From: Halobaculum sp. MBLA0147
Lineage (GTDB): Archaea; Halobacteriota; Halobacteria; Halobacteriales; Haloferacaceae
NCBI RefSeq assembly: GCF_041361345.1
Contig: NZ_JBGKAD010000001.1
Location: 2,418,001 to 2,482,000 of the forward strand
Reading direction: 5' to 3'
DNA: 64,000 bases
Positions within the stretch are counted from its first letter, which is position 1. Every line of letters begins with the position of its first letter. Position numbers and translations under genes: made by a program. Under the pieces are notes generated by a model, which did no database searches, was not told the origin of the DNA, and saw only the letters and a program-made list of their open reading frames with translations. This document shows, piece by piece, positions 5,151 through 45,031 of this stretch.

Positions 5151-6131
5151 TCAGTCCGGTCGCTGTCTGGCGGCGCGACTGCCGGCCGAGCCGCCGAGTT
5201 CGTCGAGGATCGCGTCGGTCACCTTCGTCGGCACGTCGTGTTGGAGCCAGTGGGTCGCCTCCTCCAGCCCGGTGAACCGGCCGTCCGTGCAGTGTTCCAG
5301 GCTCTCGTGGGCCATCCCGCGCCGCAGGAAACGGTCGCGAGCGCCCCAGACGACGCGTGTCGGCACGTCGACGCGGTCCGTCTCCGGCTCCGGCCGTCGC
5401 CGCCCGTTCGCGCGGTACCAGTGGAGCATCGTCGTGAACGCGCCGTCGCGCTCCCAGGCGGCGCGGTACCGGTCGAAGTCCCGGTCGTCGAACGTCCCCG
5501 GCATCGCCGTACGGCGCATCGTCGTTCGCGGGAGCCGCCAGTCGAACGCCCGCGAGACTGCCTCCGGCACCGCCGGGAGTTGGAACGCGACGGCGTAGGC
5601 GGTCCGCGCGAGCTGTGTCGGGTTCCGACGGAGCGTCCGCCGGATCACCGTCGGGTGTGGCGCGTTCGCCGTCACGAGCCGGCGGAGTCGCTCCGGGTGG
5701 TGGATCGCCAGCCACCACCCGACGACGCCGCCCCAGTCGTGGCCGACGACGTGGGCCCGATCGCGGTCGTACGCGTCGATCAGCCCGACCACGTCATCCG
5801 CGAGCCGGTCGATCCGGTAGGCGGCGACGTGGCTCGGCTTCGGCGAGCGGTTGTAGCCGCGCTGGTCGGGGACGACGACGCGGTAGCCCGCCCGTGCGAG
5901 CGGCCCGATCTGCTCGTGCCAGCCGTACCAGAACTCCGGGAACCCGTGGAGACAGACGACCAACTCGCCGTCCGCGGGGCCCGCCTCGACCACGTGGAAC
6001 TGCTCGCCGTCGACTCGCCGGTACCGAGCCTCGCCCGGCACCGTCTCCGGGAGTGTGTCCGTCTCGCGCCGGCCGGACCGTCGTCGGCTCCCGTCCGACA
6101 CCTCCTCGGACGGGGTGCTGTCGGAACTCAC
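5151..6131 (-). CDS. Alpha/beta hydrolase, epoxide hydrolase-like
   Basis: A 326-residue alpha/beta-hydrolase. The oxyanion-hole segment HGFPEFWYGW (about residue 60), the nucleophile elbow HDWGG (Asp nucleophile, about 125) and a late catalytic His in ATHWLQHD fit the epoxide hydrolase/haloalkane dehalogenase branch. The cap domain lies between residues 150 and 240. The first 30 residues are a haloarchaeal low-complexity leader and the true start could be further in. GTG at 6131 was taken. It is a single gene between convergent and divergent neighbours, and its substrate cannot be read from the sequence. Confidence 0.85.
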   Translation of the reverse strand: MSSDSTPSEEVSDGSRRRSGRRETDTLPETVPGEARYRRVDGEQFHVVEAGPADGELVVCLHGFPEFWYGWHEQIGPLARAGYRVVVPDQRGYNRSPKPSHVAAYRIDRLADDVVGLIDAYDRDRAHVVGHDWGGVVGWWLAIHHPERLRRLVTANAPHPTVIRRTLRRNPTQLARTAYAVAFQLPAVPEAVSRAFDWRLPRTTMRRTAMPGTFDDRDFDRYRAAWERDGAFTTMLHWYRANGRRRPEPETDRVDVPTRVVWGARDRFLRRGMAHESLEHCTDGRFTGLEEATHWLQHDVPTKVTDAILDELGGSAGSRAARQRPD

Positions 6132-6263
6132 GACGACCGGTAGGCGACGGACGAGCGAAAGCGTATCGGCGTCGGGGGTGACAGTCGCCAGCGACCGGTC
6201 GGCGTCGAACCTCCCGTCCAGTCGTAGTCCGACGGTCTCGTCGGTCGTCTGCTCTCGTTCGAC

Positions 6264-41006: not shown

Positions 41007-41294
41007 ATGAGTGACCGAGTCGAGAACGACGACCCCGTCGTCACGGAACTCTCCAGTGACGGCGAGACGGCGATCCCTGCGCCGGTCCGCGAGTGTTTGG
41101 CCCTCGAACCGGGCGACGAGATCCGGTGGCGCATCGACGGGGAGACGGTCCGTGTCCGTCGGGCCACGCCGACGGCGAAGGGTGTCGCCTACGCGGACGA
41201 CGTCCCGATCGAGGATCGAGAGGAGTGGGTGACCAACGCGAACGAACGCCTCCGCCGGAAGCGCGAGACGGACTGGGACGGGGCTGGTGAGTAG
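41007..41294 (+). CDS. AbrB-like antitoxin/DNA-binding protein
   Basis: A 95-residue protein. Residues 10-55 match a SpoVT/AbrB swapped-hairpin domain (TELSSDGETAIPAPVRECLALEPGDEIRWRIDGE), and the rest is an acidic helical tail suited to covering a toxin. Its stop is directly followed by the ATG of the PIN gene with no gap, the standard antitoxin-toxin order. ATG at 41007, after a GGTTTTTCACC promoter patch about 30 bp upstream. Confidence 0.8.
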   Translation: MSDRVENDDPVVTELSSDGETAIPAPVRECLALEPGDEIRWRIDGETVRVRRATPTAKGVAYADDVPIEDREEWVTNANERLRRKRETDWDGAGE

Positions 41295-41702
41295 ATGGCG
41301 ACGTACGTCGCCGACGCCGTCGCGATGAACCGTCGACTGATCGGTGCCGAGCCCGCCCGTGTCGCGGGAGTGTTCGACCGCGCACGACGGGGTCTCGACA
41401 GTCTCCTCGCCACGCCCGTCCAGTTGGCCGAGGTCGCCGACACGTTCACGCGACGCGACGAGATCGCGGGCACGACACCGTCACTCACCGGACGAGAGGC
41501 CGTACGGACACTGTTGGACGGCCCCGTCGACTCGACACCCGTCGACCGGGCCGTCCTCCTCCGACTCGACCGGCTGTTCGACTACTACTCGATCCACGAC
41601 GCCGTCCTCGTCGCCGCACACGAGACGCTCGACGCGGACGGCATCGTGACGAACGACCGCGAGATCGAGACGTTCGACGGTGACGCCGCCGTGTGGTCGT
41701 AG
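41295..41702 (+). CDS. PIN-domain toxin-like ribonuclease (VapC-type)
   Basis: A 135-residue PIN-domain protein. The acidic residues expected of a PIN nuclease are present in order: D7 (YVADAVAMN), E46 (VQLAEVADTF), the Asp of YYSIHDAVLVAAHE (about 100) and the Asp of IVTNDREIETF (about 119). It starts at the base after the AbrB-type antitoxin stop. The likely role is an RNA-cleaving toxin of a VapBC-like pair. The first motif (VADAV) is weaker than the usual LDASV. Confidence 0.75.
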   Translation: MATYVADAVAMNRRLIGAEPARVAGVFDRARRGLDSLLATPVQLAEVADTFTRRDEIAGTTPSLTGREAVRTLLDGPVDSTPVDRAVLLRLDRLFDYYSIHDAVLVAAHETLDADGIVTNDREIETFDGDAAVWS

Positions 41703-41710
41703 CCGTTGGG

Positions 41711-41769
41711 TCACCGCGTCGTGCGCCCTCCGAGAACAAACACGAGCAGTGCCATCGAGAGCGCGCCGA
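41711..41769 (-). pseudogene. 3' fragment of a second pentapeptide-channel gene
   Basis: 59 bp aligned without gaps to the last 59 bp of the channel gene at 43403-43461, with 7 mismatches. In the minus frame it reads GALSMALLVFVLGGRTTR and stop, against GALLMALLVFVLGRRATR and stop in the intact gene. It has no start or upstream coding part, and it abuts the 3' end of the HTH gene. It looks like the remnant of a duplicated or recombined channel gene. Confidence 0.75.
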
Positions 41770-41773
41770 CACG

Positions 41774-42442
41774 TCAGAACAGTTCGTCGAGCGTCCTGTC
41801 GCCGTCTGCGTCCTCGTTCAGAACGCTCGGGTCCGCAGGGGCCGCGTCGGCGTAGAACGTCTCCTCGCGGAGTTCTCTGAGTGTCGTGCCCTCGTCGGTC
41901 ACGGCCGTCAGATCGGCCGAGGAATCGGTGTCTATCTCCGATCCATCGTGGCCGAGTGCTTTCCGAACCGTCGACGGGAGCGTAGGCCGTGGTGCGTTCT
42001 CGTGGCGGCCGACCGTCTCGGTCTTGTGTGTCGCGTCGTGGACGGCACGGAGGACAGCTACTCCGCGGAGGTAGTTGTACTCGGTCAGCAGCGAGACACC
42101 GAAGGCGGTGAACCCCCAGAAGTCCGCCGGCACGTCACGCGAGTCCTCGTTCGGCTCGTGGTGGTACTGGGTCAGAATCTCGTGGTCCGCGAGGTTGGCG
42201 AGTTGCTCGCTGATCGCGGAGCGACTGCGCGGGACGTAGTACGCGATCTCGGTCGTGGACGCGAGGTTCGACGGGTGGCCGAGGAGAACTTGCAGAACGT
42301 TGTGTCGCGTCTCCTGTGAGAGATACCGCTGGACCGTGCGCTCGGTCTCGTACGGGACGCTGTCGTCGAGGTCGAAGACGTCCGCGACCGAGGGCGTCTC
42401 CGCGTGACCCTCCGATCCGGTGGCTGTCTCAGAGCGACTCAT
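41774..42442 (-). CDS. Winged-HTH regulator of the accessory module
   Basis: A 222-residue protein. An ArsR-like winged helix spans about residues 36-95 (TVQRYLSQETRHNVLQVLLGHPSNLASTTEI, then RSRSAISEQLANLADHEIL and a YYHHEP-type wing). FWGFTAFGVSLLTEYNYLRGVAVLRAVHDAT and a disordered acidic C-terminus follow. The ATG at 42440-42442 faces the divergent gene at 42563 across a perfect 10-bp inverted repeat, so it probably represses both promoters. Confidence 0.8.
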   Translation of the reverse strand: MSRSETATGSEGHAETPSVADVFDLDDSVPYETERTVQRYLSQETRHNVLQVLLGHPSNLASTTEIAYYVPRSRSAISEQLANLADHEILTQYHHEPNEDSRDVPADFWGFTAFGVSLLTEYNYLRGVAVLRAVHDATHKTETVGRHENAPRPTLPSTVRKALGHDGSEIDTDSSADLTAVTDEGTTLRELREETFYADAAPADPSVLNEDADGDRTLDELF

Positions 42443-42487
42443 CGTTGCCCGTCCGTACGCACGGGTGTCGGGTAAGCATTCCGGACA

Positions 42488-42524
42488 GACCACGACGATT
42501 CTCTGGCTCGAATCCGTCGTGGTC
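42488..42524. promoter_or_regulatory. Perfect 10-bp inverted repeat operator candidate
   Basis: GACCACGACG (42488-42497) and CGTCGTGGTC (42515-42524) are exact inverse copies with 17 bp between. They lie in the 120-bp gap between the divergent HTH gene and the Rossmannoid gene. The centre-to-centre distance of 27 bp suits a dimeric regulator binding two half-sites. Confidence 0.55.
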
Positions 42525-42562
42525 GAAACACTCTTGCGCTCCGTTACTGATATCGTCACAGT

Positions 42563-43384
42563 ATGGTCGATTCTACACGTCGCAGACGTGTCTCCGAGGC
42601 ACTGTCGCGGGCACTCCGAGACATCTCGCTCCCCGTCGAGGACTACACGACGATCCGGACGTGGGTGGACGAGGAACTTCCCCAACTTCACAGCCCCGCT
42701 GTCACCTCCTATCTCGTCTTCGGGAGTTACAGAGGACGCTACCACGAGTCCTTGCGACTCGCGCAGTACGAACTGTCGAAACCGGTGAGCGTCACTGCGG
42801 TGGTCCTCGGAGACACGCCGGAACTCGGTCTCACGGTCGCGGAGATCGGGCCGGACCCGTTGGCGTTTCTCGTGAAGTTCCACCTCTTGACGGCGTTCGC
42901 CGACCGGAACGTCGGCATCTACGAGAAGGACTCCGGTGGCGAGGCGGTCGAACTCGGACTGCTCACGGGTGAGTCGTGTTTCGAGCAGACGACACTGTTG
43001 CCTCGTGACTACTACGGGAGAGAGAGCGACGACATCCAGGATCGAGCAGACGTGTTCTCGGTTGCACGCCACGTCGCGTTCGCGGCCGACCTCGACGAGG
43101 ACGAGAAGAAGACCGAACTCCGCGGACTACTCCAGACGGCTCGGAGTCGGGGAATCGACGTGAGCGAACACGAGTTGACGGTGTTTCTCGAGGAGGAACT
43201 CGCCGACCGAGACGCGGACGCTCCGACGTACAGTTGGGTCCACCTCTCGGTCTTCCGACAGTTCGAGGCGAGCGGACGGTGTGAGACGTGGCACACCGAA
43301 GACGACCTCCGAGCGGCCGTCGCGCGGATCAGAGCAGAGAGCGCGCCACAGTGGGATCTCGGGACGACCGGTTCGGGGAGTTGA
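42563..43384 (+). CDS. Predicted NDT/TIR-like Rossmannoid protein
   Basis: A 273-residue protein of a family I do not know by name. Residues 50-135 follow a nucleoside deoxyribosyltransferase/TIR-like layout: the strand YLVFGSYRG, helix ESLRLAQYEL, strand SVTAVVLGDTPE, helix FLVKFHLLTAFADRN, strand VGIYEKDSGG, then EAVELG with E130 in the catalytic-Glu position. The second half is helical (ARHVAFAADLDEDEKK, ELTVFLEEELADRD) and ends in SWVHLSVFRQFEASGRC. Such folds hydrolyse or sense nucleotides in defence systems; the activity here is inference. ATG at 42563, divergent from the HTH gene. Confidence 0.5.
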   Translation: MVDSTRRRRVSEALSRALRDISLPVEDYTTIRTWVDEELPQLHSPAVTSYLVFGSYRGRYHESLRLAQYELSKPVSVTAVVLGDTPELGLTVAEIGPDPLAFLVKFHLLTAFADRNVGIYEKDSGGEAVELGLLTGESCFEQTTLLPRDYYGRESDDIQDRADVFSVARHVAFAADLDEDEKKTELRGLLQTARSRGIDVSEHELTVFLEEELADRDADAPTYSWVHLSVFRQFEASGRCETWHTEDDLRAAVARIRAESAPQWDLGTTGSGS

Positions 43385-43402
43385 GTGTCCGAGAACTGTC
43401 GA

Positions 43403-45031
43403 TCATCGCGTCGCGCGCCGTCCGAGGACGAACACGAGCAGTGCCATCAGGAGCGCGCCGAAGAACGACTCGACGGTGGCGACGAGTTGTCCGCGGCCGA
43501 CCGGCTGGAGGTCGCCGTAGCCGAGGATCGTGAACGTGACCGTCGAGAGGTAGAGGCTCTTGCCGACGAGGTTCGCTGCAGTGGTGTTCTGGAGCGCGAA
43601 ACTGATGACCTCGCCGCCGCTCGTCGTGTCACGGATGCCGGTGTGCTGGAACAGGCCCGCGCTGACGAGGATGGTCCCGATGGAGAGCCCGACGACGCGA
43701 CCCGGACTCTCGCCGTACTTCGTGAGTAGGCCGAAGCCGGCGTTCCTGAGCCACGAGAGGTAGTTGCCTTCTTTCCAGTGGTGTCTCCGGCGGCGGGTCT
43801 TCCGTTCGACGACGGCCTCGGTGACTCGTTCGGGAAGCGCGCTCTCGCGAGAGAGCTGTTCGATCTGCCGGAGTGTCCACGTCGCTCTCTCGATGGTGTC
43901 GTTCTCGCCGGTGTAGTGATCGCCGAACTTTGTATTTGCGTTCAGGCGGATGTCGGCGAGAATCGCACCGTAGAGTGCTGCGCCGGTGAGGTCGGCGTCG
44001 AATATGTCGGCTTTCGAGAGGTCGGCGCGTTCGAGTGTCGCGTCTCGCAGTTCCGCGTCGGCTGCCTGCACCGCTGACAGATCCCCATAGCTGAGATCTG
44101 CTCCCGAGAGATCGACCTTACGGAGGAGTGCCCCCGAGAGGTCGGCACGAGCGAGGTCTGCCTCCGAGAGGTCGGCACGGGCGAGGTCCACCTCCGAGAG
44201 GTCGGCACGAGCGAGGTCCGCCTCCGAGAGGTCGGCACTGGAAAGGTCTGCCTCCGAGAGGTCGGCACGGGCGAGGTCTACCTCCGAGAGGTCGGCACGG
44301 GCGAGGTCTACCTCCGAGAGGTCGGCACGAGCGAGGTCTGCCTCCGAGAGGTCGGCACCAGTGAGGTCTGCCTCCGGGAGGTCGGCATCGAAAAGGTCTG
44401 CCTCAGAGAGGTCGGCACCAGTGAGGTCTGCCTCCGAGAGGTCGGTATTGGGGAGGAACGCCCTCGAGAGATTGGCATTCGAAAGGTCCTTGTTTGACAG
44501 ATCGAGAAACTCGAGATTCGCCTCAGAGAGGTCGGCACCGAGTAGACCTACATCCGAGAGGTTGGCACTCGAAAGGTTCGCCTCCGAAAGGTTCGCTTCG
44601 GGTAAATCTGCACCCGAGAGGTCGGCGAAATCGAGATTCGCCTTCGAGAGGTCGGCACCGAGTAGGTCTGCCCCAGAGAGGTCGACACCCGAGAGGTCGA
44701 CACCCGAGAGATCAGCCGTCGAGAGGTCGGCGAACCGTAGCCGCGCCTCACCCAACGATTGCTCGTCTCGAAACTCGAACCCGGATAGCTCGGCACCGTC
44801 GAGAACGAGCGGTCTGTCGTGATCTACCTCCAGAACCTCACCACCCGACTCACCAAGCTCGTCCGTGTGCCAGCGACACCGCTCGCTGCCGTCGACAGTT
44901 TCGCGACGACAGACGGCGACACGATTCGACTCGACCGCCTCACGAAGCGAATCCGAGTCGAGTATCTCGTGTGAGTGGACGTCCGCCGCCAACATCTCGA
45001 ACCCACACCGACCTGGTGGCGCTTCGCCCAT
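43403..45031 (-). CDS. Pentapeptide-repeat potassium-channel protein
   Basis: A 542-residue protein. Residues 10-65 contain several Cys and His residues (RCGF, VCRRE, RCRWH). Residues 85-350 form a long run of A(D/N)LS-x pentapeptides, a right-handed quadrilateral beta-helix. After a basic linker (ERKTRRRRHHWKEGNYLSW) come TM1 (about 450-475), a pore loop with TILGYGD (K+ filter, about 507) and TM2 (LVATVESFFGALLMALLVFVLGRR). It resembles a two-TM K+ channel gated by a large cytoplasmic sensor. ATG at 45029-45031 is preferred over an upstream GTG. Confidence 0.88.
   Translation of the reverse strand: MGEAPPGRCGFEMLAADVHSHEILDSDSLREAVESNRVAVCRRETVDGSERCRWHTDELGESGGEVLEVDHDRPLVLDGAELSGFEFRDEQSLGEARLRFADLSTADLSGVDLSGVDLSGADLLGADLSKANLDFADLSGADLPEANLSEANLSSANLSDVGLLGADLSEANLEFLDLSNKDLSNANLSRAFLPNTDLSEADLTGADLSEADLFDADLPEADLTGADLSEADLARADLSEVDLARADLSEVDLARADLSEADLSSADLSEADLARADLSEVDLARADLSEADLARADLSGALLRKVDLSGADLSYGDLSAVQAADAELRDATLERADLSKADIFDADLTGAALYGAILADIRLNANTKFGDHYTGENDTIERATWTLRQIEQLSRESALPERVTEAVVERKTRRRRHHWKEGNYLSWLRNAGFGLLTKYGESPGRVVGLSIGTILVSAGLFQHTGIRDTTSGGEVISFALQNTTAANLVGKSLYLSTVTFTILGYGDLQPVGRGQLVATVESFFGALLMALLVFVLGRRATR
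44085..44480 (-). repeat. Coding tandem repeat (15/30 bp) of the pentapeptide domain
   Basis: Near-perfect repeats of cctccgagaggtcggcacga plus gcgaggtctg, with a 15-bp subperiod (five codons). They encode the ADLSE(A/V)DL..A units. Several adjacent units are identical in DNA, showing recent expansion or homogenisation. Confidence 0.85.

Follow-up and report, generated by a model that had tools for sequence, protein, structure and literature searches.

The question raised by this locus is whether five genes lying side by side at positions 41007–45031 of a 64,000-nucleotide stretch of Halobaculum sp. MBLA0147 (contig NZ_JBGKAD010000001.1, positions 2,418,001 to 2,482,000; hereafter the window) work as one system. 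A preliminary description of this DNA had read them as a single 4-kb stress or defence module, made up of an AbrB/PIN toxin-antitoxin-like pair, a helix-turn-helix (HTH) regulator, a divergently transcribed 273-residue protein and a potassium channel. All five genes were found, essentially at the coordinates given there, and they are real genes but not a single module, since elsewhere only the HTH gene and the gene for the 273-residue protein go together. Conserved as a unit are the HTH gene (41774–42442, minus strand) and the 273-residue gene (42563–43384, plus strand).

A conserved pair of divergent genes

Of 391 genomes sampled from the window's class, 172 have relatives of the 273-residue protein (E 0.001); in a sample spanning the phylum, the profile of the family matched 48 of 393 genomes, all the matching genomes listed belonging to the window's order. 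Clustering of the neighbours at 42 loci yielded two families present at 40 loci each, the 273-residue family itself and the divergent HTH protein. The next commonest families occurred at only 9–10 of the 42 loci; they resemble TnpB-type transposon proteins and Orc1/Cdc6, in agreement with Cdc6 and OrfB Pfam matches. The HTH gene adjoins the relatives of the 273-residue gene in 41 of these first 42 loci, and the remaining one (L068) carries a truncated HTH gene. On a wider count, an HTH match lies divergent to a 273-family gene at 132 of 150 listed places. Fifteen of the other 18 places are covered by 14 additional loci, and three fall within L068, L069 and L070, the HTH gene being present in the last two. 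An HTH gene free of frame breaks occurs in nine of the 14 additional loci, adjacent in eight and displaced (about 1.5 kb) in one; the remaining five comprise one frame-broken HTH gene, one HTH fragment and three loci with a fragment of the 273-residue gene but no HTH gene, one of these sitting at a contig end. The divergent HTH regulator was therefore correctly recognized in the preliminary description, being found at the 132 listed places and at most of the other intact ones.

The pairing extends to distant, shorter relatives (185–215 residues), 19 of 20 fetched examples being accompanied by an HTH gene. The window's genome holds a second divergent HTH-effector pair at about 1.906 Mb on contig C1 (L002/L052), its effector being 40% identical to that of the window and its HTH protein having a longer C-terminal part.

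The window regulator is a winged-HTH protein of 222 residues with a weak Pfam match to HTH_20/ArsR. Its profile matches the solved structure 3u1d (E 1.5e-16), an uncharacterised winged-HTH protein of the same family with 150 residues and no counterpart to the C-terminal tail seen in the window protein. Over 148 residues, the HTH partner of the distant short relative in L084 has the same sequence as 3u1d. A longer HTH form of 370–373 residues, with a long C-terminal extension, goes with one effector clade (L044, L049, L053, L057, L059–L061, L064, L066, L071 and L072).

The shared control region

The two genes are divergent in 42 of 42 measured pairs, and their start codons lie a nearly uniform distance apart (median 115 bp, mostly 109–130 bp), the individual lengths being approximate as start codons were picked by script. 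Four loci of one clade (L056, L062, L063 and L065) show intergenic regions of just 67–73 bp, which probably reflects an upstream HTH start chosen by the script and not a real difference.

In the window, the divergent intergenic region is 120 bp long (42443–42562), would contain both putative promoters, and its conservation is centred on an inverted repeat. When aligned, the intergenic sequences have in common a central pattern near ACCANNNTGGT, followed by a spacer of about 13 and then ACCANNNTGG. Summed over 41 intergenic regions, the best inverted repeat reached 324 matching positions, compared with a mean of 297 and a maximum of 307 in 50 dinucleotide-preserving shuffles. The arms in the window are perfect across 10 bp (GACCACGACG-N17-CGTCGTGGTC; 42488–42524); this putative operator is unique in the window, and none arose in 100 shuffles. 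By our own reading of the sequence, the repeat is flanked by the B recognition element (BRE) and TATA elements of both genes. Its position between the two sets of promoter elements suggests that both promoters could be blocked by one HTH complex bound there.

Predicted fold and invariant residues of the 273-residue protein

The 273-residue protein and its relatives matched no family in Pfam, NCBIfam, PADLOC and PHROGs scans (a match to phrog_3650 in ten members, E 0.0035, being weak), and a sequence search of solved structures with the family retrieved nothing. Likewise, no Pfam match to PF05014, TIR, TIR_2 or DUF4062 was found, and an hhalign comparison with a TIR-like set gave nothing significant.

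An AlphaFold2 model of the window protein had a mean predicted local distance difference test score (pLDDT) of 85. A Foldseek search with this model returned no match below E 0.001. On re-alignment with VIA-align, human DNPH1 came first (Z 11.3, 136 residues, 3.1 Å), other chains of nucleoside 2-deoxyribosyltransferases (NDT), TIR proteins and retron-Eco1 scored Z 8–10, and the retron-Eco1 effector itself Z 8.7. The model of a distant 191-residue relative also ranked DNPH1 first (Z 11.7), with retron-Eco1 at Z 9.3, and nearly all of its 50 listed matches were DNPH1, NDT, MilB, TIR (SPARTA, STING, MAL), SEFIR or retron-Eco1 proteins. Two separate models thus support placing the protein in the NDT/DNPH1/TIR fold superfamily, as predicted by the initial naming of an NDT/TIR-like Rossmannoid protein.

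Five residues (Gly54, Leu71, Glu121, Glu130 and Trp243) are the same in all 59 members, and Tyr50, Asp84 and Arg148 almost never vary among them. The glutamate at residue 130 had already been singled out as conserved; Glu121 proved to be equally so. Glu130 lies at the helix that follows the acidic-motif strand, a placement made by motif and secondary structure. The motif order GSxR ... E-x-x-x-GG-x-x-x-E-L-G resembles the GSIRG ... GYELG of a haloarchaeal DNPH1-like protein.

Loss of the 273-residue gene and interpretation

The two genes are not lost evenly. Among the matches listed, 17 intact regulators, including that of the sister genome G124, stand without an intact 273-residue gene (three of them next to a fragment of it), and about three near-intact 273-residue genes stand without an intact regulator (Fisher p 0.002). 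No other conserved partner was seen beside the lone HTH genes. This pattern fits, indirectly, what a harmful effector held in check by a repressor would leave behind.

The reading that we favour, and that we hold to be about as probable as all others together, is that the pair is a haloarchaeal, often plasmid-borne, putative N-glycosidase-type effector under the control of a repressor. In this two-gene, divergently transcribed cassette, the HTH protein would bind the inverted repeat between the genes and repress both promoters, and a signal would release it, so that the 273-residue protein is made. That protein would most likely cleave the N-glycosidic bond of a nucleotide, either nicotinamide adenine dinucleotide (NAD+) or a (deoxy)nucleotide, by means of Glu130 together with Glu121 and Trp243, and its production would probably do enough harm to make the regulator indispensable. 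A more far-reaching version, that these are new haloarchaea-specific toxins or immune effectors of NDT/TIR fold that cleave nucleotides and perhaps deplete NAD+, silenced by a dedicated winged-HTH repressor acting on a conserved, shared operator and carried across Halobacteria by megaplasmids, is conceivable and rather doubtful.

Several observations weigh against a repressor-controlled effector. Toxin-antitoxin genes are usually co-transcribed, not divergent. The asymmetry of loss was counted on the matches listed and on related genomes; moreover, the regulator family may be larger than the effector family, and a regulator may be kept for other targets. Flavodoxins reach Z 9–9.7 with the window model, only 1–2 Z units below DNPH1, a thin gap if taken alone. 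An hhalign comparison of the family profile with archaeal DNPH1 gave a probability of 0.2% and detected no sequence homology. Finally, position 106, which corresponds to DNPH1 Asp80 by its offset in the sequence, is F, L, I or Y and not acidic; a regular expression for the Asp80 position matched only 13 of 35 archaeal DNPH1 sequences and was not used as evidence.

This last residue may bear equally on a second explanation, in which the protein is a non-toxic, DNPH1-like hydrolase that clears the nucleotide pool of damaged or modified nucleotides, its own substrate inducing it by way of the HTH protein. Both models have DNPH1 as their best structural match, and the human enzyme is a nucleotide sanitiser that uses Y24, D80 and E104, with Asp80 as the general acid (PMC10603095). 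Against such an enzyme stand the patchy distribution (172/391 genomes) and frequent plasmid location (39 records) of the family, which fit an accessory function better, the separate, much closer DNPH1-like protein that some haloarchaea possess and, perhaps, the lack of an acidic residue at that offset. We consider this explanation unlikely.

A third explanation, to which we assign the same low likelihood, makes the Rossmann protein a nucleotide-binding, non-catalytic sensor that governs the HTH protein, the pair being a regulatory switch for other genes. It would account for the near-obligatory pairing, the invariant residues could bind a ligand, and lone surviving regulators are expected if the HTH protein has further targets. 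It accords less well with the two invariant glutamates, which occupy the same region as those of NDT/TIR enzymes, and with the lack of a constant third gene as a target. On balance, we favour the repressor-controlled effector over both the nucleotide-sanitising enzyme and the sensor switch.

Neighbouring genes and history of the site

The other three genes of the block are an AbrB/PrlF-like antitoxin candidate (41007–41294, plus strand), a PIN-like toxin candidate (41295–41702, plus strand) and a pentapeptide-repeat potassium channel with two transmembrane segments (43403–45031, minus strand). The identity assigned to the channel is clear from its Pfam domains (Ion_trans_2, E 5e-9; Pentapeptide, E 3e-85) and its TILGYGD pore. 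Pentapeptide-repeat paralogues are very numerous in the genus, with open frames of more than 5,400 residues in one genome (G345). The AbrB/PIN genes are present as described, but the PrlF/MazE matches of the first fall below the curated Pfam cut-offs and the second has no Pfam match, so that both names are partly a reading of motifs. A homologous AbrB-PIN pair occurs elsewhere in the window's genome (L163, about 5445–6153; PIN 58% and AbrB 35% identical), indicating that this pair stands on its own.

Neither the channel nor the AbrB/PIN genes are among the neighbour families conserved with the HTH/273-residue pair at the 42 loci; the channel lies near the pair only in the window, with a distant pentapeptide protein at one other locus. 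Conservation of the neighbourhood across haloarchaea therefore holds for the pair and not for the channel and AbrB/PIN genes, which are bystanders of the unit and should not be read into the system. The base composition gives a similarly divided picture of the supposed lower-GC block: a dip in guanine-plus-cytosine content exists across about 42–45.5 kb (0.63–0.65, compared with about 0.70 around it), while the AbrB/PIN stretch, at about 0.67, is barely below its surroundings, and values of 0.65–0.69 are also seen in the paa operon immediately upstream.

A 59-bp direct repeat links the two sides of the block: a remnant copy of the channel gene's 3' end (41711–41769) lies between the PIN and HTH genes and is 88% identical to 43403–43461, and 85% identical to the channel 3' end of the sister genome G124. 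This remnant and the operator-like inverted repeat were both missed in the preliminary description. In G124 the order is paa genes, HTH gene (77% DNA identity), AbrB-PIN remnants, a small gene that we read as MazF/PemK-like together with a winged-HTH gene, the channel gene and a thymidine-kinase gene. DNA similarity between G124 and the window stops at 42481, immediately ahead of the inverted repeat; the 273-residue gene is gone. The MazF/PemK-like gene with its winged-HTH gene recurs beside lone HTH regulators at L160 (5985–6685), L185 (3219–3940) and L189 (3144–3865). A 1.7-kb element flanked by the 59-bp repeats was considered and rejected, since in G124 the HTH gene directly follows the paa genes and the AbrB-PIN remnants lie between it and the channel, so that relocation would better explain the repeat. 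The simplest reading is that the AbrB-PIN genes relocated together with a scrap of the channel 3' end.

Homologues occur on 39 haloarchaeal plasmid records, including pNRC200 of Halobacterium salinarum NRC-1 and PHS2 of strain R1, where they are annotated as hypothetical; searches of phage records and viral contigs gave no homologue. An enrichment near known defence genes, which would be expected of a defence module, was not detected: in a PADLOC analysis of the surroundings of 20 copies, 140 neighbours matched 33 families and 139 matched control proteins 113, in one modest sample whose control regions, taken from the same contigs, happen to include a BREX-like locus.

These results bear on the abortive-infection design of sensor, repressor and membrane pore that had been suggested for the block, and on its four- or five-part form that includes the AbrB/PIN genes and the channel. 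Such a system would draw on the adjacency of the genes in the window and on a fold class to which immune effectors belong, among them TIR proteins and the effector of retron-Eco1. Against this, the pore and the AbrB/PIN genes are not conserved with the pair, G124 keeps the HTH and channel genes at the same site with no 273-residue gene, and defence genes are not enriched. As a unit, the design is largely refuted, and we regard it as highly improbable.

Comparison with known systems

No description of the pair was found in the open-access literature. As in type II toxin-antitoxin systems, two adjacent genes are inherited together; unlike in those systems, they do not form one operon, being divergent in 42 of 42 cases. 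With TIR and TIR-like proteins (SPARTA TIR, TIR-STING, DUF4062) the 273-residue protein has its predicted fold class in common, but it has no Pfam TIR or DUF4062 match and no fused STING or Argonaute partner. The NDT family (PF05014) likewise has the fold predicted for the 273-residue protein, with a glutamate starting the helix after the acidic-motif strand, although the 273-residue protein does not match PF05014. The NDT-like effector of retron-Eco1 (Ec86) also has this fold, its functionally important glutamate being E106 according to the PDB title; however, no reverse transcriptase family is among the conserved neighbours of the pair, and the partner is an HTH protein.

The best structural match is DNPH1/RCL (2'-deoxynucleoside 5'-phosphate N-hydrolase; Z 11.3 and 11.7), with a similar order of the GSxR and E-L-G motifs. 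The 273-residue protein differs from it in showing no profile similarity and no acidic residue at the D80 offset, and in having extra N-terminal helices, a C-terminal helical insert and a dedicated divergent HTH protein.

A further parallel is a homologous divergent pair on pNRC200 of H. salinarum NRC-1 (VNG_RS11970/VNG_RS11975), whose effector is 40% identical to that of the window; it is annotated merely as hypothetical, its neighbours differ from those of the window, and its presumed old locus tags, which we guessed, were not mentioned in the open-access literature. For a large haloarchaeal family annotated as hypothetical, there is now a predicted fold with a candidate active site, along with a near-constant regulator and a candidate operator. 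If the protein does cleave NAD+ or another nucleotide, it would extend a fold class widespread in immunity by an archaeal branch under transcriptional control, and the presence of homologues on pNRC200 makes binding, activity and toxicity directly testable in the laboratory strain H. salinarum NRC-1.

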